Positions 979 to 5,919 of a stretch of DNA of 43,069 nt are shown in pieces (the first letter of the stretch is position 1; each line of letters starts with the position of its first letter). The DNA is from Rhodobacterales bacterium (GTDB lineage: Bacteria; Pseudomonadota; Alphaproteobacteria; Rhodobacterales; Rhodobacteraceae). The translations under genes were made by a program, and so were the position numbers. The DNA is taken from assembly GCA_025362795.1 (NCBI GenBank), contig JANYFE010000027.1:1-43069 (forward strand), read 5' to 3'. Under the pieces are notes generated by a model, which saw nothing but the letters and a program-made list of their open reading frames with translations, was not told the origin of the DNA and did no database searches.

Positions 979-2225
979 ATGGCATGGTGTTTCGTCCCCG
1001 GCACGGATTGTCCCTCTGCGCAGGCGGCGGAGGCTTGGATCTGGGCGTCATGCTCGCCGAACCAGGTTTCCACACCCGCGCTTTTGTCGAGTGGGAGGAG
1101 TGGCCCCGCGCCGTCCTCATCGCCGCCCAGCGCGCAGGCTACTTCGCCGCTGCCCCGATCTGGGATGATTTGCGCAGCTTCGATGCCAGAGTTTTCCGCA
1201 GTGCCTTCGACATCGTCCTCGCCGGATATCCCTGCCAGCCCTTCAGCGCGGCCGGTAAGCGCGGCGGCGCCGATGACCCTCGGCACCTCTGGCCCGATGT
1301 TGCCCGCGTCATCCGGGAGTGTGGCCCCGAATGGGTCTTTCTCGAAAACGTCGCCGGGCATGTCACCCTTGGCCTCGAGACCGTCCTGCGAGAGCTTTGG
1401 GGATTGGGCTACACGCCTGCGGCGGGTCTGTTCTCTGCGGCAGAAGTCGGCGCGCCGCACCAGCGGTTGCGCATCTTCATCCTGGCCCACACCGATGAGC
1501 CTGCATCCCGGCACGGACCGCTACAACCCGGCGGGCAACAGCGACTTCACGCGGAAAGCCGAGGCGCTGGCGCTGGGCATCACCAACTGGTCGACGCCCA
1601 AGGCGACGGGCGGCGCGAAGGCTGGGCCGGGCCAGAGCTATGGCTCTGGCGGGATGCCGCCGCTGCCAGCGCAGGCGGCGCAATGGCAAACACCGGTGGC
1701 AGACGATCAGATGGACCGGCTGCGGGGCAAGATCAACAGTCGGGGCGAACCCAAGCTATCGGCGCAGGCGCTACAATGGCCCACCCCGGCGGCGCAGAAC
1801 TGGAAGGGCAGTTCCGAAGCCAGCATCACCCGAGCAGACGGCAAATCACGGATGGATATCCTGCATTACCGGGCGGAACAGGGCTTCACCCGCCCGGCCC
1901 CGGTGATCACGACGCATGGTCTTCCATTCTCATCGCACGCCCCGATCTCGCGCCCGCTGTGGGCTTCGATGATTGCCTCGCATGGGCGCGTCGTCTGTCG
2001 GCGGATCCTGAAAAGTCGATCGCGGCGGCGGTTGAACCCGCTCTTCGTCGGATGGCTGATGGGCTGGCCCATCGGGCACGCGTTCTGCGCCTGCTCGGCA
2101 ACGGAGTTCACCCTCTGGCAGCAGCACATGCGTGGCGCTCTCTCGCAGCTGCCCACGGCCTTGGGCCCCTGGATCTGGCGACCATCGAAACAACCCCCGC
2201 GCCCGAAGCAAATGACCCTGTTTGA
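975..2225 (+). CDS. DNA (cytosine-5)-methyltransferase
   Basis: This protein of 416 residues transfers a methyl group from AdoMet to C5 of cytosine. Family motifs are in order: motif I LCAGGGGLDLG near the N-terminus, motif IV GYPCQPFS with the catalytic Cys at about residue 82, motif VI as FLENVAGH, motif VIII as GAPHQRLRIF, and motif X LLGNGVHPLAAA near residue 375. The region between VIII and X, expected to hold target recognition, is low complexity and does not look like a folded domain. The GTG start overlaps the previous stop (GTGA); an in-frame ATG lies at 984. From about 1495 onward a second frame is also protein-like, and there GC at third codon positions is lower in this frame (about 60 percent over four sampled 60-base blocks) than at 1201-1260 (85 percent). 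It probably protects phage DNA from restriction. Confidence 0.8.
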   Translation: MNGMVFRPRHGLSLCAGGGGLDLGVMLAEPGFHTRAFVEWEEWPRAVLIAAQRAGYFAAAPIWDDLRSFDARVFRSAFDIVLAGYPCQPFSAAGKRGGADDPRHLWPDVARVIRECGPEWVFLENVAGHVTLGLETVLRELWGLGYTPAAGLFSAAEVGAPHQRLRIFILAHTDEPASRHGPLQPGGQQRLHAESRGAGAGHHQLVDAQGDGRREGWAGPELWLWRDAAAASAGGAMANTGGRRSDGPAAGQDQQSGRTQAIGAGATMAHPGGAELEGQFRSQHHPSRRQITDGYPALPGGTGLHPPGPGDHDAWSSILIARPDLAPAVGFDDCLAWARRLSADPEKSIAAAVEPALRRMADGLAHRARVLRLLGNGVHPLAAAHAWRSLAAAHGLGPLDLATIETTPAPEANDPV

Positions 2226-2241
2226 AGGAATGCTGCGATGA
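1495..2241 (+). CDS. Overlapping +1-frame protein with WPTP repeats, inside the C5 methyltransferase gene
   Basis: This frame lies +1 relative to the methyltransferase and is open from 979, where an ATG sits 6 bases after GGATGGGG. Its convincing part begins near 1483-1495. It contains repeated WPTP/WSTP/WQTP blocks and the stretch LNPLFVGWLMGWPIGH followed by CACSATE. I know these from phage proteins encoded with or fused to C5 methyltransferases. The stop overlaps the next gene's start as ATGA, which is typical of a translated operon member. In four 60-base blocks (1741, 1801, 1921, 1981) third-position GC is 59/80 here against 48/80 in the methyltransferase frame. It may be an independent gene, or the alternative C-terminus of the methyltransferase reached by a +1 shift. 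The exact start is unknown. Confidence 0.45.
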   Translation: MSLHPGTDRYNPAGNSDFTRKAEALALGITNWSTPKATGGAKAGPGQSYGSGGMPPLPAQAAQWQTPVADDQMDRLRGKINSRGEPKLSAQALQWPTPAAQNWKGSSEASITRADGKSRMDILHYRAEQGFTRPAPVITTHGLPFSSHAPISRPLWASMIASHGRVVCRRILKSRSRRRLNPLFVGWLMGWPIGHAFCACSATEFTLWQQHMRGALSQLPTALGPWIWRPSKQPPRPKQMTLFEGMLR

Positions 2242-2925: not shown

Positions 2926-5919
2926 TCAAGCGGCGCGGGCGGCCCGCATCACGCGCCGGAACATCAACCCCATAAGCATATCACGCGCTTCCTTGTCCTG
3001 CATGAAGGCGTTTCGCATCTGGTTATCCCGCTGGAAAACATGGATCGCGCGGCGCATGAACTCTGCGTTGAAGCGATCCTTCACCACTTCGGGAGCGTTG
3101 TTGCGCAAAATCTCGACCCAAGCCTCGTCATCCAGAATGGCTTCGTTGACCGCCTCGAATCGGATGTAGTCCTCTTCGGTGAAGTTCGTACCGTGGCGGG
3201 CATTGAAAGCGTCGATGATTTCAGAAAGCGCCCTCTGCTCTTCCTCAGTGTATGCATTGGCACCGAACCGGTCGATTGGTGACAGGCTAGCGGTATCGTC
3301 ACGTTGGAGGCGCCCATCCGATACTCCCTGATCCTGCAACCGATACGCAGTCAGTTGCAGCATGTCATCGGTGATGTCTTCACCTTCGGGTGCCGCGCGC
3401 GACGGCAGCAGCCGCTTCAACCAAGAGCCATAAAGATGCAGCTTTTCAAGCCCCGTATCTTGGAGACTGACCACCTGCGCGATGAAAGAGTAGAAACGCA
3501 GGAACGAGGCCAGCAGCTGGCGAAACTCCTCCTGCTCATCCTCGGCCAACTGGGCTTCAAAACGACCGACCGCTTGACGCACAATCCCCTCAAGAACTGG
3601 CCGCTCATCTGCCGCCTGACGGTTTCCGAGGAAACGGGCGACAAAACGGTCGATTTCATCCTGCTGCAGGATCCCGAAGGCGTTCATGCGCGCTTGCAGG
3701 TTGTAGATCTGGTTCGGGTCTGAACGGTCCTCCATGCCGGTCGCATTATAATACGGCTTGAATGCCTCTTTGATGTCGTCGACCGCGTTGCGGAAGTCCA
3801 AAATGAAGGTCCGAGTTTTGGTTGGAAAGGTCCGGTTCAAACGCGACAACGTTTGAACAGCCTGCAACCCGTCAAGCTTGCGATCGATGTACATCGCCAC
3901 CAGCTTTGGCTGGTCGAATCCAGTCTGATATTTTTCAGCAACCACAAGTACGTTGAACTCAGCGCTGTCGAACCGACGGGGCAGTTCTGTTTCCGGAAAG
4001 CCGTTCATTCCAGGTTCAGAGTATGCCTGACCGTCCACCAATATCTCGCCCGAAAATGCAACGAGGGAGTGCACGTTGTCGTAACCCTGCGCGACGATGT
4101 ATCGGCTGATCGCCTGATGGGTACGGATGGCATGTTCGCGACTGGACGTGACAACCATTGCCTTCGCATGGCCAGCCAACTCTGGCAGGGCATGGCGGCG
4201 GAAATGCTCGACGATCACTTCGGCCTTTTGATCCATCGCAGTTTCATGAAAATCAACGTAGCGCGCAACTTTGCGGCGTGACTTTCGCTCCAGAAGCTCG
4301 GGATCCTCGTCGATGGCCTTCTCCAAGGCAAAATATGCCTGATACGTCTGATAGTTCTGAAGGACGTCGAGAATGAACCCCTCCTCGATTGCCTGCCGCA
4401 TCGAATAAAGGTGAAAGGGAATAGGCAAGCCTTCCGGTCCGATGTTGCCGAACCGTTCCATCGTCACGTTTCGGGGGGTCGCGGTGAATGCGAGATACGA
4501 AAGATTGGTCTGTGGCCCTCGCAGGCGCTGCAGTTCCAGCAGAGCCCGCTCAACCTCATCGTGCTCATCTTCTTCCGAGATCCCGCCATCTGCCAACACC
4601 CGCGCCATACTGTCGGCATGTTTGCCCGATTGCGAACTATGCGCTTCATCGATCAGGATCGCGAACCTGCGCTGGGCCTCGTTCTTCAAGACGCTCATCT
4701 GGTCCGTTGAAAACTTGTGGATCGTCGAGATGATGATCTTGGCGCCTTGCTCGATGGCGGCCCGCAGCTGCCGCGAGGTTCCATCAATGGCCTTCACGTA
4801 GTTTGCGGTCTGGGCGAAGGACTTCACCGTATTCTGAAGCTGCCGGTCCAGCACGACCCGATCCGTGACGATGATCACGCTGTCAAAGACGGGGTGATCT
4901 TGATCATCGTGCAGGGTGGCAAGTTGATGGGCGACCCATGCGATGGTGTTCGATTTGCCCGAGCCCGCCGAATGCTGAAACAAGTAGTTCTGCCCAGCGC
5001 CCTTTTGCTTGGCATCGGCGCACAGGCGGCGCACCGCATCAAGCTGATGAAAACGCGGCCAGATGGTCGTACGCTTGACCTTGCCGCCTGACTCTTCGAC
5101 TTCGCTCACCAGAACGAACTTGTGGATGATATCTAGCAACACCTCGCGCGACCAAACCGCCTTACTGCCCGGTACATCGCAGTAGAGGTAGGCGATACGA
5201 AACTCACCCTCGACATCTGGATTGCCCGCACCGCCGTCGCGCCCTCGGTTGAAGGGCAGGAACCGCGTCCGCCCGTTTTCCAAATGCGTCGTCATTGAGA
5301 CATTGTCCTGGTCCAAAGCGAAGTGGACCAGCGCCCCGCGTTTGAACGTCAACAGTGGCTCACCATTTGGCGAACGGTCGCGGCGATACTGGGTCTCTGC
5401 CGTCTGGTAGGTCGAACCCGTCAGCGTGTTCTTGATCTCCAGCGTGATCACCGGGATGCCGTTCACGAACAGGACGACATCAATGGCGTTCTCGGACGAA
5501 CGACTGTAGCGAACCTGCCGCATGGCGGTCAGAATGTTGCCCGCGTAGGCGCGCACAAGATCCGGGTTCATCGCCGAAGCTGGACGAAACCCGCACAAGC
5601 TGATGCGGATGCCTGGGACGATGGTGATCCCCTGCCGCAGCACCTCCAGCGTGCCGACAGCACCAAGGCGGCTGGCAATCTGCCGGGCAAGCTCGGCCTC
5701 GGCACGGCCGGGATATTGGTCGTTCAACCGGGTCCATGCATCTGGTTGGGTCGCACGGACAAACTCGGCCGCCATTTCTGGATCGATGGCATTTGCTCGA
5801 TCAAACGCGGTGAAAGGGCGTTCCAACCAGCCCTGCCGAGTGACCAGTTGATCAACCAGATGAATTTCAACCGCCTCTTCGGTGTGCAGCTTTTCGCGGC
5901 GGATATTGGGGCTGGTCAA
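2926..5919 (-). CDS. hsdR: Type I restriction enzyme, R (motor and nuclease) subunit HsdR
   Basis: This subunit of 997 residues translocates DNA and cleaves it when the HsdM/HsdS complex meets an unmodified site. The N-terminal nuclease has the PD-(D/E)xK pattern: D147, then E161-I-K163 in VITLEIKN. The SF2 helicase motor has Walker A SAGSGKS at 317-323, the DEAH box at 424-427 (IDEAHSS), motif III FTATPR near 478-483, motif V YQTGFDQPKL, and motif VI QTLSRLNRTFP. Length is normal for the family and all key residues are present. The start is TTG, with AGGAGG 6 bases upstream, and it overlaps the stop of the upstream gene (TTGA). It is the last gene of the minus-strand operon. Confidence 0.95.
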   Translation of the reverse strand: MTSPNIRREKLHTEEAVEIHLVDQLVTRQGWLERPFTAFDRANAIDPEMAAEFVRATQPDAWTRLNDQYPGRAEAELARQIASRLGAVGTLEVLRQGITIVPGIRISLCGFRPASAMNPDLVRAYAGNILTAMRQVRYSRSSENAIDVVLFVNGIPVITLEIKNTLTGSTYQTAETQYRRDRSPNGEPLLTFKRGALVHFALDQDNVSMTTHLENGRTRFLPFNRGRDGGAGNPDVEGEFRIAYLYCDVPGSKAVWSREVLLDIIHKFVLVSEVEESGGKVKRTTIWPRFHQLDAVRRLCADAKQKGAGQNYLFQHSAGSGKSNTIAWVAHQLATLHDDQDHPVFDSVIIVTDRVVLDRQLQNTVKSFAQTANYVKAIDGTSRQLRAAIEQGAKIIISTIHKFSTDQMSVLKNEAQRRFAILIDEAHSSQSGKHADSMARVLADGGISEEDEHDEVERALLELQRLRGPQTNLSYLAFTATPRNVTMERFGNIGPEGLPIPFHLYSMRQAIEEGFILDVLQNYQTYQAYFALEKAIDEDPELLERKSRRKVARYVDFHETAMDQKAEVIVEHFRRHALPELAGHAKAMVVTSSREHAIRTHQAISRYIVAQGYDNVHSLVAFSGEILVDGQAYSEPGMNGFPETELPRRFDSAEFNVLVVAEKYQTGFDQPKLVAMYIDRKLDGLQAVQTLSRLNRTFPTKTRTFILDFRNAVDDIKEAFKPYYNATGMEDRSDPNQIYNLQARMNAFGILQQDEIDRFVARFLGNRQAADERPVLEGIVRQAVGRFEAQLAEDEQEEFRQLLASFLRFYSFIAQVVSLQDTGLEKLHLYGSWLKRLLPSRAAPEGEDITDDMLQLTAYRLQDQGVSDGRLQRDDTASLSPIDRFGANAYTEEEQRALSEIIDAFNARHGTNFTEEDYIRFEAVNEAILDDEAWVEILRNNAPEVVKDRFNAEFMRRAIHVFQRDNQMRNAFMQDKEARDMLMGLMFRRVMRAARAA

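Follow-up and report, generated by a model that had tools for sequence, protein, structure and literature searches.

Some C5 cytosine methyltransferases divide their conserved motifs between two polypeptides. In M.EcoHK31I, as outlined in PMC3404938, motifs I to VIII and X lie in the larger polypeptide and motif IX in the smaller, with the target domain predicted to reside in the large subunit; in M.AquI, according to the same paper, the chain is broken past motif VIII, in the variable region, and a second polypeptide makes up the C-terminal part. PMC3404938 and PMC5944983 further indicate that the pieces of a C5 enzyme divided between motif VIII and its recognition domain can come together again. 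Here we describe a locus of related design in a 43,069-nucleotide stretch of DNA (the window: positions 1 to 43,069 of the forward strand of contig JANYFE010000027.1, GenBank assembly GCA_025362795.1, from a Rhodobacterales bacterium). A C5 cytosine methyltransferase frame of 416 amino acids (frame 0, 975-2225, whose product we call alpha) and a +1 frame of 420 amino acids (979-2241, product beta) cover nearly end to end a common 1.25 kb of prophage-like DNA, and sequence comparisons make it probable that the locus encodes a split C5 methyltransferase with its two subunits in two coextensive frames, alpha and beta being most likely subunits of one enzyme.

By layout, the nearest precedent appears to be M.EcoHK31I: frame 0 holds motifs I to VIII and X, and motif IX can be assigned to the +1 frame through a chain of profile comparisons, the direct comparison alone not being significant. 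In M.EcoHK31I the small subunit is reported (Lee, 1995) to be encoded within the gene of the large one but in a different frame, a trait with which the position of 979-2241 over 975-2225 agrees; M.EaeI resembles M.EcoHK31I. Unlike M.EcoHK31I, the locus has its cassettes in the small subunit while the middle of alpha is near neutral (dNN/dSN 0.80, defined below) and modelled as disordered, and it is further set apart by coextensive frames, a common start junction, modular cassettes and its occurrence among phage and prophage genes. Because the target domain does not seem to be in alpha, the locus may be said to work like the M.EcoHK31I type, as a variant rather than a plain member. The small subunit of M.AquI has both IX and X, whereas the window has X in alpha and fully overlapping genes; an M.AquI-like layout is seen in the phages Kampy, Krili and ArV1 (see below), not in the window. 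In multispecific phage C5 methyltransferases of the SPbeta/phi3T type a number of short modules separate motif VIII from motif IX and are read in frame with the core, whereas the cassettes of the window, whose recognition role is putative, are in the other frame. In tymoviruses, which are RNA viruses, an unrelated protein is overprinted on an RNA-capping enzyme; unlike there, both frames of our locus seem, from their sequences, to serve one enzyme. The tymovirus overprint, p69, is a long same-strand one over the replicase methyltransferase domain (PMC8227390). Both overlapping frames are annotated in E. coli phage K1G (ORF31/ORF30, a C-specific methylase and a nested 'Mte8-like protein') and in Paenibacillus phage Pagassa (59/60); the deposited records of K1G, Pagassa and ArV1 list both without explanation, those of K1G and Pagassa relating neither frame to the other, and the one paper found on the Mte8-like protein, PMC5582158, gives no more than its name. 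No account of these overlapping phage methyltransferase frames was found in the open PMC literature, subscription papers lying mostly outside its coverage.

Frame 0 carries the catalytic domain. Motifs I, IV (PCQ), VI (EN), VIII and X occur in that order in the one protein, as in C5 methyltransferases, and alpha matches the Pfam family DNA_methylase (PF00145; 9.3e-32, residues 12-186) and phrog_363 (1e-54). On the forward strand, as for all features of the pair, sequence and alignments place motif I (LSLCAGGGGLDLG) at 1008-1046, the catalytic PCQ of motif IV at 1230-1238, motif VIII (QRLRIFILAHT, ending as ...SSWPTP in the +1 frame) at 1461-1493 and motif X (LLGNGVHPLAAA) at 2091-2126. Among 55 sequences the PC of motif IV (P86, C87), E124, R164 and R166 of motif VIII, and G375 and N376 of motif X are invariant, and Q88 nearly so. 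No motif IX was found in frame 0, where the Pfam match ends at residue 186, and the IX-like motif sits in the +1 frame; when the profile of the 55 alphas is set against that of 22 ordinary C5 enzymes, the alignment covers motifs I to VIII only. The AlphaFold2 model of alpha (overall predicted local distance difference test, pLDDT, 63.8; predicted template modelling score, pTM, 0.60) has mean pLDDT of 76-96 in blocks over residues 11-178, below 50 over 183-306 and 92 over 381-390, with a motif X helix at 380-393, and its best Foldseek match is M.HhaI (2z6q, E 2.9e-13, 179 columns). In the model a good catalytic domain leads into a disordered central stretch, and motif X forms a helix.

The +1 frame reads as a weakly constrained N-terminal leader, a row of WxTP-headed cassettes, and a motif of the form LNPxxVEWLMGWPxGW, and beta matches phrog_27243 (6.2e-144, residues 173-419) and phrog_1008, 'DNA methyltransferase' (1.9e-18). 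Cassette 1 (WPTPMSLHPG..., 35 codons, 1483-1587) is missing from L079, one of the related loci introduced below, and cassette 2 (WSTPKATGG..., 32 codons, 1588-1683) from L147, L077 and L079; exactly the 31 codons of cassette 3 (WQTPVADDQ..., 1684-1776) are missing in L114 and L115, and L122 has a different piece at this position, related cassettes occurring elsewhere. The last cassette (WPTPAAQNWKGSSEASITRADGKSR...) and its linker to motif IX cover 1777-2031, a region in which KGSSPATLTRKDGKSR is present in Acinetobacter phage ABMM1 too. The motif IX-like segment LNPLFVGWLMGWPIGH follows at 2032-2079, where the same bases read ALRRMADGLAHR... in alpha, and its L214, N215, W221, L222, G224 and P226 are invariant in 70 sequences. 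A preliminary description of the window had recognized the two frames, and its readings are borne out: the bases of ILAHT in motif VIII also encode SWPTP, those of RMADGLAHR also encode WLMGWPIG, frame 0 retains motif X, and the +1 TGA stop (2239-2241) shares an ATGA with the ATG of the next gene (2238). It placed the overlap from 1483 onwards; the overlap actually begins at 975/979. At the 3' end the stop of frame 0 lies 16 nucleotides ahead of the +1 stop in 141 of 147 full-length loci.

The cassettes are modular. Cutting by pattern yielded 339 in 116 proteins, with a median of 35 residues and 0 to 8 per protein, in 44 clusters plus 69 singletons; minus-strand segments, those interrupted by a +1 stop and those shorter than 110 residues had been excluded, leaving 279 and, after thinning, 116, so that this set is open by selection. 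In close relatives whole cassettes are missing or replaced at exact boundaries, and 41 of 390 cassette pairs that are at least 70% identical link enzymes with cores less than 45% identical (32 pairs were set aside); L221 and L230 are conspicuous among the lowest of the pairs shared by distant cores. Between motifs VIII and IX the cassettes are thus exchanged and absent as units, and they are putative DNA-recognition modules.

The identity of beta is read through actinophage relatives. In the mycobacteriophages Kampy and Krili and the Arthrobacter phage ArV1, alpha stops within a dozen codons past motif VIII and the +1 gene holds cassettes, a motif IX (RLNAAFSEWMMGW in Kampy) and a motif X (IIGNGVVVQQA); in DLane gp65 and Fancypants gp73, motifs I to VIII, LPTP cassettes, IX and X all lie in a single frame. 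Profiles of window-type and actinophage-type betas match each other (P 7e-16, probability 98.6%), and the actinophage type in turn aligns with ordinary C5 enzymes at motifs IX and X (P 5.7e-5, probability 66%). Through this chain beta seems to be a relative of the C-terminal half of a C5 methyltransferase. The proposal in the preliminary description that two conserved families are overprinted is thus supported as to overprinting, with both frames under selection, but not as to separate families.

Openness of both frames was assessed in relatives fetched with the +1 protein (best 80 of 81 viral contigs, representing 77 distinct loci, and 80 of 129 genome contigs). We analyzed 160 loci, among them the window's own and that of a Roseicitreum plasmid (L163); 147 are full length, and 129 unique sequences served for the stop and substitution tests. 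Free stop codons in relatives, a check suggested in the preliminary description, are absent from frame 0 in all 147 full-length loci, the window included, and interrupt the +1 frame in one (L045). When frame 0 codons were shuffled synonymously in the 129 sequences, 167 +1 stops were expected between 984 and 1394 and 164 between 1485 and 1874, and none was seen in either region; between 1875 and 2174 there is one against 27 expected, and the stretch 1395-1484 is without power (none seen, three expected). With the +1 protein kept instead, 171 frame 0 stops were expected between 1486 and 1875 and again none was seen. The +2 frame, used as a control, has 337 stops in 984-1394 where 333 are expected. 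Thinning to 11 representatives less than 85% identical leaves no +1 stop in 984-1394 against 15.2 expected, a count reached in 0 of 2000 shuffles; with 5 representatives (<80%) and 3 (<75%), 3 and 30 of 2000 shuffles respectively have equally few. Neighbouring genes give no sign of +1 stop avoidance (675 seen and 621 expected, 762 and 695, 2841 and 2674), and 30 ordinary C5 methyltransferases of the phylum have 472 +1 stops for 475 expected and 775 +2 stops for 868, none of the 30 being open in +1. The shuffle results argue for translation of the two frames over their whole length and for a start of beta close to that of alpha, and dual coding is very likely maintained at the locus.

The order of constraint along the locus is frame 0 at the 5' end, the +1 frame in the middle and both at the 3' end. 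In the 129 codon-aligned sequences variation falls mainly at the frame 0 wobble position up to about 1484 and at the +1 wobble position over 1485-1874, and is low at all three positions over about 2025-2175; constraint passes from frame 0 to +1 within about 30 nucleotides at 1476-1505, where every base is more than 90% invariant. The overlapping-gene substitution analysis that the preliminary description had called for was made on 63 independent pairs, classing single-base differences as silent or not in each frame with a custom script modelled on OLGenie that gave transitions a weight of 2, and it finds constraint in both frames, varying by region. The frame 0 ratio (dNN/dSN) and the +1 ratio (dNN/dNS) are 0.06 and 0.49 (0.30-0.81) over 984-1394, 0.12 and 0.40 over 1395-1484, 0.80 (0.51-1.29) and 0.06 over 1485-1874, 0.12 and 0.16 over 1875-1994, and 0.11 and 0.07 over 1995-2174, and in the tail (2175-2222) mild constraint is left in +1 (0.28) and none in frame 0 (0.96). 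The middle of alpha is therefore nearly free and the N-terminus of beta under weak constraint only, whereas some 100 codons at the 3' end have to satisfy both frames. The guanine-plus-cytosine (GC) content of third positions, on which the preliminary description had also relied, favors the +1 frame in the 120-nucleotide blocks that start at 1455-2055, as it had claimed (0.82, 0.82, 0.80, 0.68, 0.80 and 0.93, against 0.68, 0.72, 0.53, 0.55, 0.60 and 0.57 in frame 0); its claim that frame 0 is favored in the 5' half holds for block 1095 (0.80 against 0.65), blocks 975 and 1215 being even and 1335 and 2175 nearly even.

The two frames begin at a common junction, GTGAATG (975-981), which holds the frame 0 start GTG975 (ATG984 being the alternative), the TGA of the upstream gene (976-978) and the +1 start ATG979. 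ATG979 is kept in 126 of the 129 unique sequences. NTGAATG is found, in phase with frame 0, at the start of 126 of 132 close relatives, in 35/62, 53/76 and 59/77 loci of other, partly overlapping sets, and in 1 of 30 ordinary C5 methyltransferases. Among loci with NTGAATG, a frame of at least 60 codons ends at the junction TGA in 126/126 close relatives versus 20/35, 28/53 and 24/59 in the other sets respectively, and coupling to an upstream gene is therefore general only in the close relatives. We rejected internal initiation at the in-frame ATG1495, the gene start in the Roseicitreum annotation table, as the source of beta: this ATG is kept in 123/129 sequences, but a core Shine-Dalgarno tetramer stands ahead of it in 1/129 and the +1 frame is maintained upstream. 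A second, shorter beta from ATG1495 is possible.

The arrangement is widespread. Searches with beta alone, using +1 profiles from six distant sources (the window, a Synechococcus phage, a Sphingomonas plasmid, Acidovorax, Acinetobacter and E. coli phages) and an Acinetobacter +1 protein, gave two lists, and in the best 80 of each (150 distinct cores) a C5 methyltransferase lies in the -1 frame relative to beta in 160 of 160 loci. Fetching instead with the N-terminal methyltransferase part of ABMM1 alpha alone (best 80 of 577) recovered the +1 profile in 77 of 80 loci, the others being L410, L414 and L421, of which the last two are cut. In 72 unique complete ABMM1-type genes (GC 0.46-0.63) no +1 stop was seen from motif VIII to X where 125 were expected; in 74 unique genes codons 0-12 have 67 for 68 expected and codons 12-165 have 1 for 218, and the 3' end is again constrained in both frames (+1 0.16, frame 0 0.15, 28 pairs). 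These sets overlap, 7 beta-found cores being also in the viral-contig set and 26 of 78 distinct ABMM1-type cores also beta-found. Among 354 loci one has no methyltransferase match; of the other 353, 346 have the +1 relation, five no +1 match, one the +2 relation and one both 0 and +1. Loci with phrog_1008 have a methyltransferase in 29 of 30 cases (not L195). phrog_1008 is present in 27 of 398 genomes of the phylum, and K1G gene matches occur in 68 of 5426 E. coli genomes. Annotation is uneven: the record of Acidovorax phage Alfacinha1 annotates the +1 frame as cytosine methyltransferase and that of ABMM1 frame 0, and the incomplete PLSDB table for the Roseicitreum plasmid lists only the C-terminal part of the +1 frame (L163:4517-5266, 'DNA methyltransferase') and no catalytic-frame gene.

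Alpha is without motif IX and without a conserved recognition region, and beta appears to have them, so that a heterodimeric (or larger) split enzyme is the simplest reading. Alpha would supply the catalytic domain (motifs I to VIII) and motif X, its middle remaining free and disordered, and beta the DNA recognition part, in the form of the WxTP cassettes (31-35 codons for the first three), followed by motif IX. Terminating or initiating ribosomes could enter either frame at GTG-A-ATG, at the end of the upstream replication-type gene. Each frame would have its conserved part over a tolerant leader or linker of the other, with only the 100 or so 3' codons constrained in both. Because the cassettes lie in the free middle of alpha, blocks could be lost or exchanged without harm to it, and such changes would alter target specificity. 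Protection from restriction, by methylation of the phage's or prophage's DNA, is the probable purpose of the enzyme. Translation of both proteins, their assembly into one enzyme, the part of the cassettes in recognition and this biological role are what we infer from sequence. We would give roughly even chances to the fuller proposition, that two coextensive frames with starts 4 nucleotides apart hold both subunits and that specificity evolves by block exchange of cassettes, each a recognition module in one frame and a harmless linker in the other.

Our first reading of the sharp switch in constraint was a programmed +1 (or -2) frameshift near motif VIII, which would fuse motifs I to VIII of alpha to the C-terminal part of beta besides making full-length alpha. 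This now seems unlikely. The switch within some 30 near-invariant nucleotides, the order of parts in single-frame relatives and the near absence of Shine-Dalgarno tetramers before ATG1495 all fit it, but it was dropped as the main model because the +1 frame is open for about 140 codons upstream, which a shift does not need: in programmed frameshifting the downstream frame is not kept open ahead of the shift, and here it is, as the 0 of 167 stops and, in ABMM1-type genes, 1 of 218 show. A +1 ATG is also conserved 4 nucleotides past the alpha start, no clear slippery codon pair was noticed by eye, short of a systematic scan, and the fusion would be without motif X. The same openness, with ATG979 in 126 of 129 sequences, makes unnecessary the +1 shift to alternative C-termini offered in the preliminary description, and a minor frameshift product is possible.

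Alternatively, beta could be an independent protein, such as a regulator or counter-defence factor, that simply overlaps the methyltransferase. Its own strong amino acid constraint in the middle (dNN/dNS 0.06) and the ease with which the alpha catalytic domain models alone would suit this, yet we hold it slightly less probable even than a frameshift: every one of the 160 beta-found loci has a C5 methyltransferase along with it (L076, L148 and L074, where it looked standalone, being pieces beside foreign sequence), it ends in the motif IX that alpha is without, and relatives hold it in one frame with motifs I to VIII, or together with motif X. That the +1 frame is a by-product, its openness and its similarity among relatives being imposed solely by the methyltransferase and by high GC, is the least credible of these alternatives, with very little to recommend it. 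High GC does lower the risk of +1 stops, family libraries may include spurious frames, and the shuffle null is approximate, as the +2 departures given below indicate. However, shuffles that preserve the frame 0 protein predict many +1 stops, the effect holds in genes of 46-50% GC, ordinary C5 enzymes have 472 +1 stops where 475 are expected, neighbouring genes have no bias against them, and over 1485-1874 it is frame 0 that is near neutral and +1 that is constrained; on the strength of shuffles and controls we reject an artefact of a spurious frame.

Several observations weigh against a split enzyme in two frames. Beyond the 5' part the +2 control no longer agrees with the shuffles, with 203 stops in the middle for 337 expected (frame 0 as reference) or 186 (+1 as reference) and 538 for 347 at the 3' end, so that the null is sound for the 5' part but coarse for the remainder; +2 stops of neighbouring genes are also about 20% under the shuffles (615 for 780, 341 for 432, 2700 for 3436), and the null is therefore approximate. 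Some copies are aberrant: L045 has its +1 stop, L020 is partial with a frame 0 stop, and L003, L028 and L072 have frame changes. Core Shine-Dalgarno tetramers precede ATG979 in 46 and GTG975 in 45 of 129 sequences, and the case for translation of both frames is one from sequence. Beta has no meaningful Pfam and no NCBIfam match, and searches of PDB sequences with beta profiles returned two chance-level matches, then none, and no solved relative. Its AlphaFold2 model (window 1393-2238, 70 sequences) is poor (pLDDT 64, pTM 0.30), although this might be expected if beta folds only together with its partner. When the profile of window-type betas is compared directly with ordinary C5 enzymes, it picks motif IX without reaching significance (P 0.25), and the link of beta to C5 enzymes therefore depends on the actinophage-type betas. 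The single-frame actinophage enzymes, DLane gp65 and Fancypants gp73 included (loci L494, L493 and L495), have LPTP cassettes also in +1, directly after motif VIII and before those in frame, which a split does not account for, and it gives no reason for the weakly constrained leader of about 170 residues in beta.

Long same-strand overlaps are seldom well supported, and annotation often retains one frame. If the fuller proposition holds, the locus would represent a wide class of phage genes and, to our knowledge, few same-strand overlaps with good support in double-stranded DNA phages would be as long. If the split enzyme is real, many phage methyltransferases are annotated as half an enzyme, a clone of either frame by itself would be inactive, and the search for specificity would be directed at the wrong frame. 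The locus would offer a natural case in which both halves of one complex are overprinted, making dual-coding evolution and co-expression from one junction testable.

The gene upstream of the pair (19-978) resembles phage replication initiators (phrog_345, 3.1e-20), and the gene starting at 2238 is a member of phrog_9306. Adjoining the methyltransferase pair, at 2926-5919 on the minus strand, is the R subunit of a type I restriction system (HSDR_N, SWI2_SNF2). The best relatives of the locus point to a member of the Rhodobacteraceae as the probable host. Two further copies of the pair are found in the same 3.84-Mb genome (contigs C72:33547-34840, minus strand, and C107:982-2239, plus strand; loci L002-L005), each matching in two pieces, and in the C107 copy both frames change at about 1868-1908.

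Other arrangements were noted among the relatives. Several have, about 0.8-1 kb downstream, another stretch that resembles C5 methyltransferases at a distance, with 29-32% identity (L006:3551-3958, L013:5119-5595, L034:5014-5490 and L087:5049-5549). Locus L485 has motifs I to VIII, cassettes and IX in one frame, on a metagenome contig with a later frame change that may hold an error, and L491 (2501-2952) has IX and X in frame 0 and cassettes in +1, so that frame use may hop among relatives. By eye, homing-endonuclease-like frames occur inside the overlapping genes of L491 (LAGLIDADG-like, upstream of 2501) and L243 (HNH-like, 1832-2400), and the methyltransferase of Propionibacterium phage B22 (L495:1-900) has an intein-like insert just before the CQD of its catalytic motif.

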